Under the pieces are notes generated by a model. That model searched no databases. It was not told the origin of the DNA and worked only from the letters and a program-made list of their open reading frames with translations. A DNA stretch of 23,007 nucleotides from a virus: the IMG/VR virus record IMGVR_UViG_3300013233_000375, positions 1-23,007 of that record, one strand, 5' to 3'. Positions within the stretch are counted from its first letter, which is position 1, and each line of letters starts with the position of its first letter. Shown here one piece after another: positions 7,401 through 23,007 of this stretch. The position numbers were made by a program, and so were the translations under genes.

Positions 7401-7730
7401 TCAGACGCCCGGGTTGAGCAGCACCTTGGCGGTGGTGTCGGCGCTGGCGGCGTCGGCCGCGGCGATGCCCACCGGGATGTTGGCGGTGGCCGTGGTGGTG
7501 AGCTCGTTGTTGGTGGCGTCCCAGTAGAGCTTGTCGCCCAGGGACCAGGCGGTGGCGGCGACCTTGGCGAGGTTGAACACGCCCGTCATGGCCACGGCGA
7601 CGGTTGCCCCGGAAACGGCATCCTTGGCGGCCACGCCGATGCAGTCGGTGAACTCGATGACGTCGCCCGAGGTGATGGTGGCGGTGGCGACGTAGTCGAG
7701 GACGTCACCGCGCTGGACATAGTTCTTCAT
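7401..7730 (-). CDS. DUF2190 capsid decoration protein
   Basis: 109 aa. The pattern MKNYVQRGDVLDYVATATITSGDVI, then GVAAKDAVSGATVAVAMTGVF, then KLYWDATNNELTTT and IPVGIAAADAASADTTAKVLLN is the classic DUF2190 (PF09956) signature: small beta-rich proteins made next to the major capsid protein, thought to decorate or brace the capsid. A ribosome site (GGAGGT) lies seven bases before the ATG at 7730. Confidence 0.9.
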   Translation of the reverse strand: MKNYVQRGDVLDYVATATITSGDVIEFTDCIGVAAKDAVSGATVAVAMTGVFNLAKVAATAWSLGDKLYWDATNNELTTTATANIPVGIAAADAASADTTAKVLLNPGV

Positions 7731-7784
7731 GGCAATACCTCCAGTAGTGGGCCCCGGCCCGCGGGCCGGGGCATTGGCCTGCGA

Positions 7785-9779
7785 TCAGGCGCCGGCGTTC
7801 TTGTACAGGGCCCGGTAGTCGAGCGCGCTGGCGGCGGCATCGATGCGTACCTTGTACTCCACGCCATCGGTGGTCCAGCCCTCCTGCTGCTCGAGGTAGG
7901 GCTCGGTGACGCCATCGAGGAAGGCCACCTCGACGGTATCGTAGAGCCCGGGGTTGCCGGCCAGGTACCAGGCGGTGGCGCTGTCGGCATCGAGGCGGGC
8001 ATCGCTGACGACCTGCAGGCGGCCGCGGAAGCCGTTGGGCTCGATGAAGCTGGTGACGGAGCCCTCGGCCGGGTTGACCTCGGCGGCCACCAGGACCCGG
8101 GCGGTGTATTCCAGCGCCGCCGGCACGATGATGTAGGCCGGACGGATGTTGAGGGTGGCGGCACCGCTCGGATCGGTCTGCTTGGCCATGGCGGTGAAGG
8201 CCGTGTCCAGGGTGCTGACGCTGGGCGCGGCGCCGGAGCCGGAGGCCACCAGGTTGCTGTGGTTGGCATGGAACAGGGCGGTGCTGTCCTGGTTGAGGGT
8301 CGGGTTGGACGTGAGCACGGCATAGGCCAGGTCGCCCACCTTGCGCCCGGCGGCGCGTCCCATCTTGCGCGGGATGGTGGTGAAGGCGGCGAGGTCGTCG
8401 TTGATGATGGCCTGCCGGGAGATGCGGAACAGCTTGCCGTAGGTGGCGAGCTGGATCGTCTCCTTGAGGTCGGACATGGTGCCCGCCTTGTATTCGCCGT
8501 CCTCGGGGACCAGGTCCAGGTCCTCGAAGTCGCTCAGGCCGACGCGGGAGTTGCTCTTGAAATCGGAGAGCGAGCCGGTGCGGGCCCAGAGCTGCCAGTT
8601 CTCGGGGGCCTCGGTCCAGCCCAGGAGCAGTGCCTTGCGGGCGGAGTCGGCCAGGACGTTGGCGAAGTCGCTGGTGGTGTGGCTGCCGGCGCGGGTCAAG
8701 GCCTCGCCGACCATCTGGACGCGGTTGAGCCCGCGCGTCTCGAGCCCCTGCAGGCGCAGGTATTCCCGGGCCATGTCGGCCAGCGACATGCTCAGGTATT
8801 CGCCCTCGCGGGCACGCTGCACGGCCTGCGGGTCGGTCTCGAGCTGGGCCCGCACGGCAATGGCCTCGGCCACGCCATCGCGGAAGCCGTCCAGTGCGTC
8901 CCTCCCGGGCTGGATCGCCGGGGTACCCTCGTGGCGGATGCCGCGCTCCGGGTCGGTGGCTGAGGGATCGGCCAGGGGGCCAGCCTGGGCGGCGGCATCC
9001 TGTTCGAGCAGGTGGCGCCGGAGCTGGTCCGCGTTCCAGCCCTCCTCGATGGCGGTCAGGCGCAGGGCCTGGCCGGCGGGGGTGTTGGTGCGGAATTGCA
9101 TGATCTGTTCGATCTCGGCGATGCGGGCGCGCTCGGCGGTGATCCCCGCCTGCCGGCCCTCCTGCTGGCCCACGGTGCGGGCGCGCTCGAACTCCACAAC
9201 GGTGCCACCGGCACCGCTGCCGTTGGCGGGCTGGGGCTCGCCGTTGCGGTTGTCAGTCATGGGAGTGTCCTCATGGTCGGGGTGGAAGTATCGCCCGATG
9301 CCCACGGTGGGATCAGCGGGCACGGTCACGACGCTGGCCTCGTTCACGGCCCAGCGGGTCACGATGATCAGATCGCTGTTGGCCTCTTCCTCCCACTTGC
9401 GGATGGAATAGCCGATGGAGATGCTGTCCAGGAAATCGTCGAGCACGTCCTGCCAGATCTCGGTGGCGCGGGCATTGCGGGAGAAGTGCAGGTAGCCCTC
9501 CAGGCGCCCGTCTTCGAGGCGCAGGTTGCGCACCTTGCCAATGAGGATCCGGTGGTCGTGGACCCAGAGCATCGGCAGGCCGTTGGCGGCCCGGCCCAGA
9601 TCCACGGCCTCGGGGGTGTGCTGGAGGACCTCGGTGCCGAACCACCGTTCCACGGGCTGCTCGCTGGAGAGGCTGGCCGGGACCATCCGCTCGGTCTCGG
9701 TATCGACCAGGCGGGCGAGATCGAGGGTCATGGTCCGTTCATAGCGGCCGGTGCGGATCTGCTTGTTGCGCTGGGTCAT
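7785..9779 (-). CDS. Prohead protease-major capsid protein fusion
   Basis: 664 aa. Residues ~10-165 look like an HK97-type (U35) prohead protease: LWVHD with His74, the DSISIGY box with Ser119/121, and NEASVVTVPADP at 146-157. A charged Gln/Glu/Arg-rich linker follows (~165-290, scaffold-like delta region). Residues ~300-664 form the capsid protein, with phage gpT/HK97-fold features such as TLNIRPAYIIVPAALEYTARV and a C-terminal YKVRIDAAASALDYRALYKNAGA. Cleavage in the linker would free the mature subunit. No separate protease or scaffold gene is present nearby. The ATG at 9779 overlaps the portal stop. Confidence 0.9.
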   Translation of the reverse strand: MTQRNKQIRTGRYERTMTLDLARLVDTETERMVPASLSSEQPVERWFGTEVLQHTPEAVDLGRAANGLPMLWVHDHRILIGKVRNLRLEDGRLEGYLHFSRNARATEIWQDVLDDFLDSISIGYSIRKWEEEANSDLIIVTRWAVNEASVVTVPADPTVGIGRYFHPDHEDTPMTDNRNGEPQPANGSGAGGTVVEFERARTVGQQEGRQAGITAERARIAEIEQIMQFRTNTPAGQALRLTAIEEGWNADQLRRHLLEQDAAAQAGPLADPSATDPERGIRHEGTPAIQPGRDALDGFRDGVAEAIAVRAQLETDPQAVQRAREGEYLSMSLADMAREYLRLQGLETRGLNRVQMVGEALTRAGSHTTSDFANVLADSARKALLLGWTEAPENWQLWARTGSLSDFKSNSRVGLSDFEDLDLVPEDGEYKAGTMSDLKETIQLATYGKLFRISRQAIINDDLAAFTTIPRKMGRAAGRKVGDLAYAVLTSNPTLNQDSTALFHANHSNLVASGSGAAPSVSTLDTAFTAMAKQTDPSGAATLNIRPAYIIVPAALEYTARVLVAAEVNPAEGSVTSFIEPNGFRGRLQVVSDARLDADSATAWYLAGNPGLYDTVEVAFLDGVTEPYLEQQEGWTTDGVEYKVRIDAAASALDYRALYKNAGA

Positions 9780-13227: not shown

Positions 13228-13262
13228 GATTTGACCTTTTCCGGTTTCATGAGAAACAGGGC

Positions 13263-17905: not shown

Positions 17906-18153
17906 CACAACGCCTTCCAACTTTTGCCGGCCTGGGTTGTAGGCCGTTGTAAATCGGAGTGGCTACAAAAAAAGGGCGGGCGACCGGAGTCGCCCGAACT
18001 GTCAGGGGGAGGAAATGCCGGATTGAGCCGCCCCGGCAGGCGGAATTGTGGTGAACCCCAACATAGCCAGATGAGGCCCATCAAGATCATGCATGCCGAT
18101 ACGAAGACAATCAGCGCCAATATGAACAGAGGAGTCAACAGGACATCACGCAC
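17905..18153 (-). CDS. Small single-helix membrane protein, unknown
   Basis: 82 aa from the GTG at 18153, with GGAG seven bases upstream; the start overlaps the cro stop. One strong membrane segment at ~6-32 (FILALIVFVSACMILMGLIWLCW), then a Pro/Ser/Gly-rich tail. The 3' third of the frame includes a terminator-like hairpin and T-run (17967-17996), which is unusual for coding DNA. Its stop at 17905-17907 overlaps the next start (TGATG), supporting a real coupled gene. No family recognised. Confidence 0.55.
   Translation of the reverse strand: MRDVLLTPLFILALIVFVSACMILMGLIWLCWGSPQFRLPGRLNPAFPPPDSSGDSGRPPFFCSHSDLQRPTTQAGKSWKAL
17967..17996 (-). terminator. Terminator-like hairpin (tR1 position)
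   Basis: On the minus strand CGGGCGAC-TCCG-GTCGCCCG forms an eight-base stem, followed by CCC and seven T. It lies shortly after the Cro-like gene, like lambda tR1, but inside the reading frame of the small membrane protein. Confidence 0.75.
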
Positions 18154-18361
18154 AGGCCCGCTCCGATGCACGGCGTTTATCGAGAAGCAGCTCCACGGGT
18201 GTAATCACACCATCCACAGCCTCACTGACCGCCAGGGCCATGTCCCCGGGACAATATCCGCGGCTCCTCCATTGACTGATTGCTGCAGGGGTCCGCGATA
18301 CCTTGCGGGCCAACGCGATGCGTCCCCCGGCGGCCCTGATTGCTCGTTCCAGTGCGTTCAC
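18146..18361 (-). CDS. Cro-like repressor (YdaS type)
   Basis: 71 aa from the GTG at 18361. HTH: GGRIALARKVSRTPAAISQW at 12-31, the YdaS/Cro pattern (PF15943), then CPGDMALAVSEAVDGVITPVELLLD. A longer frame starting TTG at 18397 is rejected because that TTG is part of the promoter -35 box. The predicted transcript start is at or within a base or two of this GTG, so the mRNA may be leaderless. First gene of the lytic operon; expected to shut off the repressor promoter. Confidence 0.85.
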   Translation of the reverse strand: MNALERAIRAAGGRIALARKVSRTPAAISQWRSRGYCPGDMALAVSEAVDGVITPVELLLDKRRASERACA

Positions 18362-18368
18362 GCCCCTA

Positions 18369-18397
18369 AAGCTAGTATCACTAACTCCCGATGTCAA
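18369..18397 (-). promoter_or_regulatory. Lytic promoter PR with palindromic operator
   Basis: TTGACA (18392-18397, perfect -35) is 17 bases from TAGCTT (18369-18374, weak -10). The palindrome TAGT-ATC-ACTA (18373-18383, extended ends G and C at 18371 and 18385) overlaps the -10 and spacer, so bound repressor would block RNA polymerase. Confidence 0.7.
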
Positions 18398-18432
18398 GGG
18401 TTGCCTGCGATGAGAAAAGTCACGACATATTG

Positions 18433-18438
18433 CATACT
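18433..18438 (+). promoter_or_regulatory. Possible -10 box of the repressor promoter
   Basis: CATACT lies eight bases before the ATG at 18446, which would place the transcript start at the start codon. No good -35 box is seen, as for lambda PRM, so activation by bound CI is possible. Confidence 0.4.
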
Positions 18439-18445
18439 CCCCGGC

Positions 18446-18778
18446 ATGGGATTATCCGACCGCCTCAAAAAGGCCCGCCTGCGGGCCGGACTCAAACAAC
18501 AACAAGTGGCCGATCACCTGGGCGTGACGAGATCATCCGTGAGCCAATGGGAACAGGAACGGCACCGTTCAAAACCGACCTATCATCACCTCAAGGAATT
18601 GGCAGCCCTCTATGGGGTCAGCCTCGATGACCTCATTGGCCATCCATTATCGACAGGGATAGACGAAGAATCGGCGCCATACGGCACAATCCGGGCCCAG
18701 CTTGCTATGCTGACGGGTGAAGAACTCGAGGTCATCGAGAAACTCATACAGCTATTGCTGAATCGCAGGAGCCAGTGA
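18446..18778 (+). CDS. CI-like repressor, HTH only
   Basis: 110 aa from the ATG at 18446. An upstream in-frame ATG at 18410 would add 12 residues that do not fit the family. HTH_3/XRE domain at ~5-60: LKKARLRAGLKQQQVADHLG, then VTRSSVSQWEQ as recognition helix. The C-terminal ~45 residues form a helical region (LTGEELEVIEKLIQLLLNRR), likely for dimer formation. There is no S24 peptidase domain. It faces the Cro-like gene, so it is the likely lysogenic repressor. It has no ribosome site, in keeping with a leaderless transcript. Confidence 0.85.
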   Translation: MGLSDRLKKARLRAGLKQQQVADHLGVTRSSVSQWEQERHRSKPTYHHLKELAALYGVSLDDLIGHPLSTGIDEESAPYGTIRAQLAMLTGEELEVIEKLIQLLLNRRSQ

Positions 18779-18945
18779 TGTCCCGTATCAAGCCCTGCCC
18801 GGATTGCCGGCAGGAAATCAGCACCCGCGCCAAAAAATGCCCCCATTGCGGCCGAATCCTCCACCGCGACCTCATCAGCCTCATTGCGAAAGGCTTTGTC
18901 GCACTGCTGATCTTCCTGATTGTCTATGCAGTCGCATCGAGTTAG
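18778..18945 (+). CDS. Zinc-ribbon membrane protein, exclusion candidate
   Basis: 55 aa; ATG overlaps the repressor stop (TGATG). Residues 7-24 hold CPDC and CPHC pairs (C7, C10, C21, C24), a zinc-ribbon knuckle, and residues ~33-52 form one membrane helix (LIAKGFVALLIFLIVYAVA). Co-expression with the repressor in a lysogen makes a superinfection-exclusion or membrane role plausible, but the sequence does not prove it. Confidence 0.72.
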   Translation: MSRIKPCPDCRQEISTRAKKCPHCGRILHRDLISLIAKGFVALLIFLIVYAVASS

Positions 18946-18951
18946 GAATAC

Positions 18952-18980
18952 TTGACATGACGGGCAGCTAATACTATCTT
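18952..18980 (+). promoter_or_regulatory. Promoter of the ParB-like/integrase operon
   Basis: TTGACA (18952-18957) and TATCTT (18975-18980) with a 17-base spacer form a good sigma-70 promoter. Transcription would start near 18987, inside the palindrome that follows. Confidence 0.75.
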
Positions 18981-19006
18981 TCCCTCCAGGCCCGCCCTGG
19001 AGGGAA
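18980..19006. promoter_or_regulatory. Perfect 11-5-11 palindrome, operator candidate
   Basis: TTCCCTCCAGG, five bases (CCCGC), then CCTGGAGGGAA. It begins at the last base of the -10 box, and its right arm contains the ribosome site GGAGGG of the 81-aa gene. Because transcription would start inside the left arm, a DNA operator is more likely than a full RNA hairpin. Confidence 0.75.
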
Positions 19007-19009
19007 TCG

Positions 19010-19255
19010 ATGACGCACAAACAACTCGCCGCAATGGCCGTGGAAACGGCCCATTATTGTATCTATGCCTGGCGGTTGAACGCCTGGGCAGCCAAGGCCG
19101 CCCTGTCCGAGGGAGATGGCAGGAGCTGGTCCAGGCTCATGAATGAGGCCCGCGCCTGGAAACGCGACGCCCGCCACTGGGCCGATCGCGCCCGGGACAT
19201 GCTCTATCGGCAACCGATGCCCTGCGGTTCTTCGGGAAACGGGGGCCATTCATGA
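19010..19255 (+). CDS. Small Trp/Arg-rich protein, unknown
   Basis: 81 aa with a GGAGGG ribosome site six bases upstream of the ATG. It is helical and rich in Ala, Trp and Arg (YAWRLNAWAAKAALSE; ARAWKRDARHWADRARDM), compatible with a small nucleic-acid- or protein-binding helical bundle. The stop overlaps the start of the ParB-like gene (ATGA). First gene of the operon and directly behind the palindromic operator, so it or ParB may be the autoregulator. No family recognised. Confidence 0.65.
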   Translation: MTHKQLAAMAVETAHYCIYAWRLNAWAAKAALSEGDGRSWSRLMNEARAWKRDARHWADRARDMLYRQPMPCGSSGNGGHS

Positions 19256-20778
19256 GCCTCCCTGATCCCATCGAAGCTGCTCCCGATATCCCGCCTCGAG
19301 CCCTCCTGGAGCTGCCCATCGACCAGATTGCCCCGGATATGCAACAGCCCCGCCGGCACTTCGACCAGGAGGCCCTCCAGCTACTGGCCGACGATATCCG
19401 CGTGCGCGGCATACTCCAACCCATCGCCGTCCTGCCTACCGGCGAAAATCACTACACCATTTGCTACGGCGAGCGGCGCTGGCGCGCCGCGCAACTGGCC
19501 GGCCTCCAGACGATCCCCTGCCTCATCGATCGCCCGATCCCGGAGAAAATCGCAGAAGATGGAGGCATTTCCCGCGCCTTCGATCAGATCGCCGAGAATG
19601 TGCATCGCCAGAATCTCAACGCGATCGAATTGGGTACGTTCTTCAAGCGTCTGCGCGATTTGCACGATGTGCCTGTCGGCCAGATCCCGGAACTGTGCGC
19701 CCAGAACGGCCTGCCTATCTCCCGCAGTTATGTCAGCAACCTCATTCGCCTGACCGAGCTGCCGCAGTGGGCCCAGGACCTCATCCAGGCCGGTACGCTG
19801 ACCGCCGGCCATGGCAAGATCTTATGCATGGCCCGCGACCTCCCGGAGGTCATGCAAGACCTGCAAGATGAATTGACGGATCCCGACCTGGATCCAGACG
19901 ATTTGCCTACGGTCAAGGAACTCCAGGCATCGATTTATGGCGCCTGCCAGCGACACTACAACATCGTTCATGACTGGGTATTGCTGGAAGATGCCTTCGA
20001 TGAGAGGCGCGAATCCCTGCAAACCATTTCCCTGCCCAGTCCCTGGAATTCAGAACGTGTAGTGACATTCGCGCGCAACGTCGAGGCCTATCATGAACTG
20101 CTCGAACAGCTCCATGGAAAAAACGAGCCACAATCTGGCCAGCAGCACGACAACGGCGAAGACCTGGACCAGGACCCAGTGGCCACCGAGCCAGGCAATC
20201 CTTGGCCGGGATTCGACGAATACCGACAACTCCGAACTCTGAAGCAGCATCTGCGTGAATATCTGATAGAGCGGCTCATGGCAATCCTCGAACCGCGGCA
20301 ACTGCTCACCCTCACATTCTGGCTGGCGCTCGATGGTCCAGAATTTGACGATGAAGATCCCGATGTCGGCGATTGCACGAAGGGCTATGTCGATGTCGGC
20401 TGTGAAATCATGCAGGGTCTGAAACAGCGCCGTCCCGGGCAACTCATCGCGAAGTTCTCGACGGAAGCGGACCTGCAAATCCTGCTACAGGATCACCTGC
20501 CGGCAATCCTCTGCGAAGTGGAAACCGGCACCATCATCAGGCTCGCCCAGGATCTCGGCATCGGCATCGATGACTGGTACATCAACCGGGAAATACTGGA
20601 GACCCTCAGCTTGGAGCAATTCAACCAGATGATTGTTGCGGGAGATTCCCTGGCCCAATGTCCCGAAGCATGGCCAAGAGAACAGCGCCTCGCCTGGGCG
20701 GAAGAAAATGCCCAGGTCCTGCCACCGCCAGATGTGCTGCTCCAGTTGTGGGACAAAGAGGGAGAAATTGCAAGATGA
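19252..20778 (+). CDS. ParB-like protein with large unknown C-terminal region
   Basis: 508 aa. The N-terminal ParB/Srx domain is canonical: IAPDMQQPRRHFD at 26-38, DIRVRGILQPIAV at 48-60, the CTP-binding CYGERRWRAAQLAG at 71-84, and ENVHRQNLNAIE at 115-126. An HTH region follows: VGQIPELC with ISRSYVSNLIRLTELP at ~142-171 and GTLTAGHGK at 181-189. Residues ~200-508 are acidic and match no family I know. There is no ParA-type ATPase gene anywhere in the element. It may act as a CTP-dependent DNA clamp for control, silencing or partition using host factors; this is inference. Coupled by ATGA overlaps on both sides. Confidence 0.85.
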   Translation: MSLPDPIEAAPDIPPRALLELPIDQIAPDMQQPRRHFDQEALQLLADDIRVRGILQPIAVLPTGENHYTICYGERRWRAAQLAGLQTIPCLIDRPIPEKIAEDGGISRAFDQIAENVHRQNLNAIELGTFFKRLRDLHDVPVGQIPELCAQNGLPISRSYVSNLIRLTELPQWAQDLIQAGTLTAGHGKILCMARDLPEVMQDLQDELTDPDLDPDDLPTVKELQASIYGACQRHYNIVHDWVLLEDAFDERRESLQTISLPSPWNSERVVTFARNVEAYHELLEQLHGKNEPQSGQQHDNGEDLDQDPVATEPGNPWPGFDEYRQLRTLKQHLREYLIERLMAILEPRQLLTLTFWLALDGPEFDDEDPDVGDCTKGYVDVGCEIMQGLKQRRPGQLIAKFSTEADLQILLQDHLPAILCEVETGTIIRLAQDLGIGIDDWYINREILETLSLEQFNQMIVAGDSLAQCPEAWPREQRLAWAEENAQVLPPPDVLLQLWDKEGEIAR

Positions 20779-21104
20779 TTGATTACGCTGCAGCATCTCG
20801 ACGACAGATCATCGACCATGTCGTCACTCACCCCGGCATTGCTGCGGCGGCAGGCGCGGTAATCATGCCCACCGAAATCTGCGAATCGGGGCATTTGATC
20901 CATTGGAGCAATACCCGGGGCAGTCACAAGCCTACCACCTGCCATTGTGGAGGAGAGTTGCATCACGCAGAATATCGTGATGGAGAGTGGCGGCGGCGCG
21001 AAAAGCGCACCCGGCAATGGTGTGAAGTTCACCTGCGCCATCATTACGATCCAGATGGGTGCTACTGGTGCAAGATTGATCAAGTCCGCAAGCGCAATGA
21101 ATGA
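20775..21104 (+). CDS. Cys/His-rich small protein, putative zinc finger
   Basis: 109 aa from the ATG at 20775, overlapping the ParB-like stop. A Cys/His cluster in the C-terminal half (TCHCGGELHH, then QWCEVHLRHH, then GCYWCK) can form one or two zinc sites. The N-terminal part is a helix with SRRQIIDHVVTHPGIAAAAG, which resembles a HTH fragment. A DNA-binding regulator is plausible. No family recognised. Confidence 0.68.
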   Translation: MIDYAAASRRQIIDHVVTHPGIAAAAGAVIMPTEICESGHLIHWSNTRGSHKPTTCHCGGELHHAEYRDGEWRRREKRTRQWCEVHLRHHYDPDGCYWCKIDQVRKRNE

Positions 21105-21309
21105 CCTGCTCACTCTTGCGGAGCTCGAGAGCGTCACCGGCGCGAAGCGCGCAGACAAGCAGGCCCAGATCCTCAAACAGGCCCACATCTATCACTGGTG
21201 GGGACTGGACGGTCGCCCGAAAACCACCTGGCATCATGTGCATGCCGCTGGAACTTCGCCGCTGCCTCACCCATCGGTTACACTCCCGGCAATGGACCTG
21301 GTGCGATGA
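21097..21309 (+). CDS. DUF4224 protein (excisionase-position)
   Basis: 70 aa from the ATG at 21097. LLTLAELESVTGAKRADKQ, then ILKQAHIYHWWGLDGRPKTTW is the DUF4224 (PF13986) pattern, a small winged-helix-like protein normally found just upstream of phage integrases. It is a good candidate for the excisionase or directionality factor. It overlaps both neighbours (8 bp upstream, 4 bp with integrase). Confidence 0.85.
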   Translation: MNDLLTLAELESVTGAKRADKQAQILKQAHIYHWWGLDGRPKTTWHHVHAAGTSPLPHPSVTLPAMDLVR

Positions 21310-22385
21310 GCAAGAACCCTCCTCATTTCGTAGAGCGCCGCTGGCACTCCCGCAAGGGTATGCGCACGGCCTACTACTACCAGCACCCTCGCGACCCGGA
21401 AACCGAGAAGCGGCGCCTGGAGCCGCTGGGAACCGACAGACGCGCTGCCCTGGAGAAGTGGGCGGCCATAGAGGGCGAACACCTGGAACCTGCCCCGGGT
21501 GGAACACTGGAGGCGATCCATCGGGAATACATGGCCTGGGCCGAGCAGATCGCCCTCTCCCGGCTCTCTCCGCGCACCATCCGAGACAGGAGAGCCTACT
21601 GGCGCGCACTGGGGCCGGTATTCGGGCACATGCCAGCGGATGAGATCGCCCCCGAGCACCTGCTGGAATACTTCGAGCGCCGCTCCAGCCAGGTGAGTGC
21701 CAAGAAGGAGATCAAGTACCTGTCCGTCCTGTTCAACTGGGCCAGGGCGCGGGGGAAGATGCGGGCCAATAACCCCGTGCTGGGGATCACCCGGCAGATG
21801 CAGGTGGACGAGCGCCGGCGGCACTATGTAGATGACCACTCTTATCGGGTGCTGTGGGAGCGCGCCGACCAGGTGGTGCGGGACATGATGGAGTTCAGCT
21901 ATCTGTGCGGCAACCGTCCTGCGGAATCGGTCAACGCCAGGTGGTCGGATGTGCAGGGCGACACCCTGATCATCCGCCTGACAAAGACCGAGAAGTCCGG
22001 CGAGCGGCTCAAACGGATCCCAGTGGAGGGCAGCCTTCGCGCCCTCCTGGTCCGTCTGCAGCGCCGTCCCGTGCTCTCCGCCACCATCCTTTGCGATGAG
22101 CGCGGCCAATCCCTGCGCCTCACCGGCCAGCTCCGCTACCGATTCATGCAAGCCCGTACAGCCGCCCTCGCAGTGCAGGGCTTCCAACCCTTCCGCCTCC
22201 AGGACCTGCGCGCCAAGGCGGCCACGGACACGGCCATGAAATACGGACTGGAAGCCGCCCGTCGGCTGCTGGGGCACTCAACGCAGAAACAGACCGCCGA
22301 CTACATCCGCCCGCTGATGGGACAGATCGCCGACCGCAGCCCGGACCTGGAGAGGATCCTGGAGGGTGCCGGGACGGCAAAGTGA
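21306..22385 (+). CDS. int: Tyrosine integrase
   Basis: 359 aa from the ATG at 21306. Arm-binding N-terminus to ~60, core-binding (SAM-like) domain ~65-160, catalytic domain ~170-340. Catalytic residues: R204 in CGNRPAES, Lys227/230 in TKTEKSGE, R302 in LQDLRAKAATD, H324 in LLGHST, nucleophile Y333 in ADYIRP. The usual His of the HxxR box is Gln299, a known variant among phage integrases. It catalyses attP x attB recombination; attP follows directly, and the first arm site overlaps its stop codon. Confidence 0.95.
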   Translation: MSKNPPHFVERRWHSRKGMRTAYYYQHPRDPETEKRRLEPLGTDRRAALEKWAAIEGEHLEPAPGGTLEAIHREYMAWAEQIALSRLSPRTIRDRRAYWRALGPVFGHMPADEIAPEHLLEYFERRSSQVSAKKEIKYLSVLFNWARARGKMRANNPVLGITRQMQVDERRRHYVDDHSYRVLWERADQVVRDMMEFSYLCGNRPAESVNARWSDVQGDTLIIRLTKTEKSGERLKRIPVEGSLRALLVRLQRRPVLSATILCDERGQSLRLTGQLRYRFMQARTAALAVQGFQPFRLQDLRAKAATDTAMKYGLEAARRLLGHSTQKQTADYIRPLMGQIADRSPDLERILEGAGTAK

Positions 22386-22617
22386 GAAAGTGAACTACCC
22401 TCTGGTGAGAAAGTAGTTAGCGGGCGCTATCACTGCATCCCATATAGGAATTGGAGGCTGGGGTCGGAATCGAACCGGCGTACACGGCTTTGCAGGCCGC
22501 TGCCAAATCCTTTTCCCATCAATTAGTTAGCCGATTTTGCTTTCTCATTCCGGCCTTTATTCGTGCCTCGTAAGTGATTATTCTATCAGGGTTCGATATT
22601 CATGTGAGAAAGTGATT
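22382..22617. other. attP region (232-bp gap, arms plus tRNA-Cys core)
   Basis: No gene lies between integrase and the last tail gene. Direct GTGAGAAAGT copies at 22382, 22405 and 22604, plus an inverted near-copy GCTTTCTCAT at 22539-22548, look like integrase arm sites. TAGTTAGC repeats at 22414-22421 and 22524-22531 flank the tRNA core and may bind Xis or integrase. Confidence 0.85.
22452..22504 (-). other. attP core: 3' part of tRNA-Cys(GCA)
   Basis: On the minus strand this reads as the 3' ~53 nt of tRNA-Cys: anticodon stem GCGGC/GCCGU with loop CUGCAAA (anticodon GCA), T arm with UUCGAUU, acceptor 3' strand CCCAGCC, discriminator U and encoded CCA. There is no 5' half, so it is not a tRNA gene. 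The T stem has one C-A mismatch (positions 50-64). Confidence 0.88.
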
Positions 22618-23007
22618 TTAGAGGTTGGCTGCCCAGATTTGATCCTGATAGGTGCCGTAGATCCTGGTGTTATCTATGCCCACGGGAGTGGGGGGGGCCG
22701 TAGGATCTGTCGAGAATTCCGGGGTGGTCGATAAGAGGGACCAGGTCGAGGAGGCGTCGAGGTATTCATAGAGCTCGCCCTGTTTGCCCGAGTTGACGCC
22801 GCGCAAGGTCATGAGCTTCTGGATCGCGCTGCCCTGCTGCTTGTGAATGAGCGGAGACATGCCGGCCTGTATCATGTTTGCCGTGGCAGATGATGCGACA
22901 TCGCTGTAGTCCCGCCGCTTCACGGCCAGGTCGAAGTAATCCGCGTGGTAGGCATAGAGCGATTGCAGGTGCAACACCCAGTGGAAGGCGAAGGTAATCG
23001 ACGGCGC
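22618..23007 (-). CDS. Receptor-binding / tail tip protein, 3' part across the join
   Basis: Bases 22768-22618 encode the last 50 residues of the protein that starts at 803, ending DNTRIYGTYQDQIWAANL; bases 22769-23007 only repeat window bases 1-239. The segment around the join (GELYEY, then LDASSTWSLLSTTPEFSTD) is continuous. It is the last gene of the lytic unit and ends five bases after the third integrase arm site. Confidence 0.75.
   Translation of the reverse strand, partial: APSITFAFHWVLHLQSLYAYHADYFDLAVKRRDYSDVASSATANMIQAGMSPLIHKQQGSAIQKLMTLRGVNSGKQGELYEYLDASSTWSLLSTTPEFSTDPTAPPTPVGIDNTRIYGTYQDQIWAANL
22769..23007. repeat. Terminal direct repeat, right copy (circular overlap)
   Basis: Second copy of bases 1-239; see the left copy. 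It should be trimmed when the genome is circularised. Confidence 0.95.

Follow-up and report, generated by a model that had tools for sequence, protein, structure and literature searches.

The locus downstream of the immunity region of this phage is best explained as an integration operon, carried by a temperate phage that integrates through an attP targeting a tRNA-Cys gene. The operon consists of five overlapping genes, orf81 through the integrase, the last two encoding an excisionase and a tyrosine integrase, and it is headed by a perfect 27-bp palindrome. We give about an even chance to the proposal that this excisionase-integrase operon is governed by an RNA-hairpin switch, with a ParB-like clamp encoded in it serving as a regulator or organiser.

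The integration operon and its attP

The window, that is, the whole stretch of DNA analysed, comprises the 23,007 bases of an IMG/VR virus record and is evidently a fragment. Its minus strand carries, running leftward, structural genes that are kin to those of VPHZ6, VP882 and phiHAP-1. On the plus strand the order is repressor, zinc-ribbon gene, palindrome, orf81, parB-like gene, orf109, excisionase (DUF4224), tyrosine integrase and attP (Table 1). An earlier note on this DNA had set the ParB-like operon beside the immunity region. The repressor and the Cro/YdaS-like regulator indeed adjoin it, and the coordinates given there for the ParB-like gene are also correct. Neither orf81 nor orf109 nor the ParB-like protein had a match in a defence library, and the viral contig collection held no relatives of the integrase or of orf109. 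Beyond attP, an open frame on the minus strand (22618-22977) shows coding-like codon use and has no family match.

Table 1. Features of the immunity region, the operon and attP, with the evidence for each.
Feature	Position	Strand	Evidence
Cro/YdaS-like regulator, GTG start, divergent from repressor	18149..18361	-	PF15943 above cut-off; phrog_35 transcriptional repressor 1.8e-13
CI/RstR-like repressor, HTH_3	18446..18778	+	PF01381 5.1e-15; RstR-family model 1.2e-15, below the model's cut-off
Small zinc-ribbon membrane-like protein, co-directional with repressor	18778..18945	+	Zinc-ribbon models, weak
Predicted operon promoter: -35 TTGACA 18952-18957, 17-bp spacer, -10 TATCTT 18975-18980	18952..18980	+	10/12 consensus
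Perfect 27-bp palindrome with 11-nt arms and a 5-nt centre; orf81 Shine-Dalgarno GGAGGG in its right arm	18980..19006		Sequence, RNA fold
orf81, 81 aa, no function assigned, first gene of the operon	19010..19255	+	ORF; weak phrog_2974 match 0.0085
Orphan ParB-like protein, 508 aa: ParB_N 18-95, HTH 121-196, unplaced largely helical 200-508	19252..20778	+	Profiles
orf109, small Cys/His-rich protein, no family	20775..21104	+	ORF, ATGA overlap
Excisionase, DUF4224	21097..21309	+	PF13986 5.8e-9, above cut-off; phrog_1266 excisionase 1.1e-14
Tyrosine integrase; GTG start at 21198 possible	21306..22385	+	PF00589 2.1e-7; phrog_1 integrase 4e-41
attP core, 3' half of tRNA-Cys(GCA)	22446..22503	-	100% over 58 bp with the tRNA-Cys gene of a gammaproteobacterial genome
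attP arm-type repeats TGAGAAAGT[G/A] flanking the core, at 22383, 22406, 22538 (minus strand, one mismatch) and 22605	22383..22614		Motif count

The features of an integrating temperate phage are all present: an integrase, an excisionase and an attP with identity to a host tRNA. The repeats TGAGAAAGT[G/A] resemble the arm-type sites that an integrase or excisionase would use in an intact attP. Five matches were counted in the window, four of them around attP, while 0.97 were expected, and none of 100 shuffles reached five. Repeats that flank the core in this way suggest that the contig represents the unintegrated form. Because the operon ends in the excisionase, the integrase and an attP whose core is identical to the 3' end of a tRNA-Cys, the prophage is most likely chromosomal. 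The same ending speaks against partition of the element, a role put forward in the earlier note: since the phage integrates, partition loses its main motive and is an unlikely function. The kinship with VP882 had raised the possibility of a linear plasmid prophage. This was rejected, as xis, int and attP are present and the window contains neither a protelomerase nor a ParA.

A palindrome over the predicted promoter and the ribosome site of orf81

The palindrome, TTCCCTCCAGG-CCCGC-CCTGGAGGGAA, was found exactly as it had been described, and it does overlie the promoter of the operon, itself predicted; the last base of the -10 hexamer is the first base of the palindrome. The promoter must be taken as a prediction only, because the scan of the region yielded three such promoters and 2.8 were expected from shuffled sequences. 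By length alone, the rarity of the palindrome is modest, perfect inverted repeats with arms of at least 11 and loops of at most 12 being found in 8 of 40 dinucleotide shuffles (mean 0.2). What is notable about it is its position over the promoter and the Shine-Dalgarno sequence. The viral contig collection contained no exact copy, and a relaxed search of the same collection gave at least 119 matches; 80 were examined, none of which was linked to a relative. A second perfect palindrome, of 22 bp and with no loop (GCCCCGGCCCGCGGGCCGGGGC, 7751-7772), lies in the gap between the head-region genes 7401-7730 and 7785-9779.

A hairpin in the RNA explains this position directly, because the right arm of the palindrome is the Shine-Dalgarno sequence of orf81 and the predicted transcription start falls inside the left arm. 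The RNA of the full palindrome folds with -20.5 kcal/mol (z -3.9), and an RNA starting at 18986 or 18987 folds with -6.9 kcal/mol or forms no hairpin. For RNAs whose 5' end is 18980 or lies farther upstream, the computed cost of opening the ribosome site of orf81 was 17.5-20.3 kcal/mol, with all Shine-Dalgarno bases paired; for RNAs that begin at 18985-18990 it was 4.7-8.2 kcal/mol. With the context fixed at 160 nt, the cost for orf81 was 22.0, the highest among 29 gene starts, with near-equal values at two other starts, g102 and parB (20.6 and 20.0), in a genome that is GC-rich. The plus strand showed no terminator-like site from the repressor genes to the palindrome, which, together with the shared direction of these genes and the operon, is consistent with transcription reading in from upstream. 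Rfam reported nothing above the gathering score at the palindrome.

We propose that the palindrome would act mainly as RNA. Transcripts reading through from the repressor and zinc-ribbon genes would form an 11-bp hairpin that buries the Shine-Dalgarno sequence and part of the start codon of orf81, and the overlapping downstream genes, including the integrase, would then be weakly translated in the lysogen. The RNA made from the operon's own promoter would start within the left arm, escape the hairpin and be translated, and the ParB-like protein would be made together with the excisionase and the integrase. This account builds on the observed gene order, protein families, attP, palindrome and computed folding; the transcription start, the read-through and the translational coupling are steps that it would further involve.

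A DNA operator is a possible but rather unlikely explanation of the same palindrome. It would lie over the transcription start, be bound by the ParB-like protein as an autorepressor, by orf81, by the phage repressor or by Cro, and shut the integrase operon off. The palindrome does reach from the -10 box to just ahead of the start codon, a dyad on a promoter is in the classical place of an operator, and within the ParB family P1 ParB autoregulates and KorB represses promoters (PMC11790492). However, the coincidence of one arm with the Shine-Dalgarno sequence would then be an accident. Moreover, the window has no second copy of the palindrome with up to three mismatches. The isolated half-sites that had been noticed elsewhere exist, but at chance level (12 matches with at most two mismatches, 8.7 +/- 2.7 expected), and none is near the cro/cI promoters. 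A 14-nt stretch beside the -35 box (18939-18952) is identical at 12 of 14 positions to the complement of 18374-18387, in the cro/cI intergenic region. This match hints at control of the operon promoter by the repressor, though not via the palindrome; as a cI site the lead is weak, with 12/17 identical positions compared with 11/17 for chance matches. Candidate repressor operators, with weak statistics, are GAGTTAGTGATACTAG in the cro promoter (minus strand, 18366-18446) and GAGTTAGGAATACTTG beside the -35 box (18939-18955). A likeness between the cro promoter and that of the parB operon was discarded, since its 20/34 identical positions are hardly above the 19/34 of the best chance match.

It is improbable that the inverted repeat arose by chance and does nothing by itself. 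Perfect repeats of this kind do arise in the shuffled windows at the frequency given above, and a second one occurs in the window at 7751-7772. Nonetheless, this one coincides exactly with the predicted promoter and the ribosome site, and the intergenic gap that contains it is some 60 bp long in a window of 23 kb.

The ParB-like protein and the clamp-loading proposal

The ParB N-terminal domain and the helix-turn-helix (HTH) recognised in the earlier note were confirmed by PF02195 (2.8e-24; 85.4 bits, cut-off 26.3), PF17762 (3.9e-9; 37 bits, cut-off 22.6) and TIGR00180 (1.4e-32; 112.9 bits, cut-off 58.45). The 508-aa protein thus has the ParB_N domain followed by a ParB HTH, with TIGR00180 above its cut-off, that define the ParB/Spo0J/Noc family. 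It aligns far better to the structures of ParB and Noc (ParB 1.9e-27) than to that of KorB (6.8e-7). In the alignment to ParB structures the three boxes of the nucleotide pocket, Box I-III, are intact (QPR at 32, GERR at 73, ENVHR at 115). The ParA-binding motif [LFI]G[KR]G[LFI], as defined in PMC12704722, is absent. Judged by its sequence, the protein is a ParB-family member of the orphan type, located outside a parAB operon and lacking the ParA-binding motif. The statement that there is no ParA holds within the window, which is itself a 23-kb fragment. As a member of this family the protein would bind and hydrolyse CTP and form a sliding clamp; for ParB-fold proteins, nucleotide specificity is not predictable from sequence (PMC12704722).

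The roughly 300 C-terminal residues that had been called unplaceable proved to be so, residues 200-508 having no Pfam match even at E<=10. An AlphaFold2 run with no alignment gave a mean pLDDT of 37.5, a model too poor for use. No homologue of the whole protein was found in viral contigs or genome contigs, and the matches in phage and plasmid collections covered its N-terminal 200 residues or little more. For residues 200-508 there was no relative among phages and plasmids at E<=10, in the Gammaproteobacteria and phylum samples or in the likely-host orders. The weak matches from the Gammaproteobacteria and phylum samples that were inspected were MukF-like and other unrelated proteins, and the matches from viral contigs had in common with this region only an EFDDEDPD stretch, the proteins being unrelated. 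Nor was such a ParB present at about 160 loci around related terminases, many of which are short.

Family knowledge suggests what the protein may do: it is most likely a nucleotide-switched DNA clamp that would regulate or organise the phage DNA and not partition it. We consider it improbable that a nucleotide-switched ParB clamp, its gene built into an excision and integration operon and its C-terminal domain without precedent, acts directly on site-specific recombination or on the decision between lysis and lysogeny, with CTP clamping gating integration. By such a route the clamp could, for example, load near attP or the immunity region and then slide.

Equally hard to credit is the earlier suggestion that makes the palindrome a loading site of the parS kind, where the ParB-like protein would close with CTP and slide so as to silence the immunity and integration region or partition the element. 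The known loading sites of the family (parS, NBS and the KorB OB) are dyads of about 13-16 bp without interruption (see also PMC7383237). The palindrome spans 27 bp around a non-palindromic 5-nt centre, occurs once and has no resemblance to parS, so that clamp loading at it received no positive support. The CTP-pocket motifs are intact and the HTH is of the ParB type, and P1 ParB and KorB do regulate close to their sites (PMC11790492), but several of the residues that contact parS are lost, the equivalents of R173, N178 and G201 being kept (alignment read against PMC7383237), and the element integrates.

The nearest parS-like sequence lies elsewhere, at 13243-13258, 4 nt past the terminase stop codon. 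It reads GGTTTCATGAGAAACA on the plus strand and TGTTTCTCATGAAACC on the terminase strand, and it has three mismatches to the chromosomal parS consensus, 0.04 such sites being expected by chance. A related contig (L019) has TGTTTCGCGCGAAACA, with two mismatches to parS, in the same place after its terminase gene; the other relatives, about 40 inspected, have none. A perfect consensus parS, TGTTTCACGTGAAACA, was seen in a further IMG/VR contig (L077:226-241), about 9.8 kb upstream of a related terminase.

Comparison with known systems

Orphan ParB-like proteins are common on prophages, and we know of no job established for them there. Orphan ParB-fold proteins of mobile elements were surveyed in 2025, and some were assayed for nucleotide binding (PMC12704722). 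The protein described here shares with them the ParB_N and HTH domains, a positive TIGR00180 match, the lack of a ParA-binding motif, an extra C-terminal region absent from Pfam and residence in a phage with no ParA alongside. It differs in that its C-terminal 309 residues have no detectable relative and its gene is in the same operon as xis and int. VarioGold, Dogfish and Maja, temperate phages with integrase and repressor, likewise encode ParB-like orphans 442-771 aa long, and their annotations show no ParA within 6 kb of these genes. However, the C-terminal regions of those proteins have no detectable similarity to that of the 508-aa protein, and their genes lie in longer early operons, not directly ahead of xis-int. 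The C-terminal region and the placement in the xis-int operon are what sets this protein apart from known orphan ParBs. The locus offers a compact and testable setting for an orphan ParB, which shares a single operon with the excisionase and the integrase, retains its nucleotide motifs intact and has a C-terminal region for which the collections searched yielded no relative.

KorB of RK2 is also a ParB-family protein, a CTP clamp that serves as a transcription regulator (PMC11790492). Unlike KorB, the present protein is phage-borne, and the two are distant in sequence, as the alignment values given above indicate. Neither a KorB operator nor a KorA-like partner was identified: the window had no match to the OB operators (TTTAGCSGCTAAA) with fewer than three mismatches, no KorA-like gene was recognised in the operon, and the KORA match of the phage repressor reached 0.019 only. 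The Vibrio phages VP882 and VPHZ6 and the Halomonas phage phiHAP-1 have related terminases (36-45% identity). Their annotations list ParA and protelomerase for VP882 and phiHAP-1 and ParA and an integrase for VPHZ6, and the present ParB-like gene is missing from all three.

For the hairpin reading, the same arrangement of hairpin and internal promoter has been established for I-TevI, I-TevII, I-TevIII, segB, e and soc of T4 and for mobE of Aeh1 (PMC2988022). At T4 I-TevI, segB, e and soc and at Aeh1 mobE the Shine-Dalgarno sequence is in the stem, as here, and the promoter starts transcription within it, as is predicted here, so that only the read-through RNA is blocked (PMC2988022). The present hairpin differs from those of T4 and Aeh1 in being predicted only, in having a sigma-70-like instead of a T4 late promoter and in standing before the first gene of a lysogeny and integration operon. 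Should the palindrome work in the computed way, the T4 type of control would be extended to an integrase whose translation is silenced in the lysogen by the phage's own repressor transcript.
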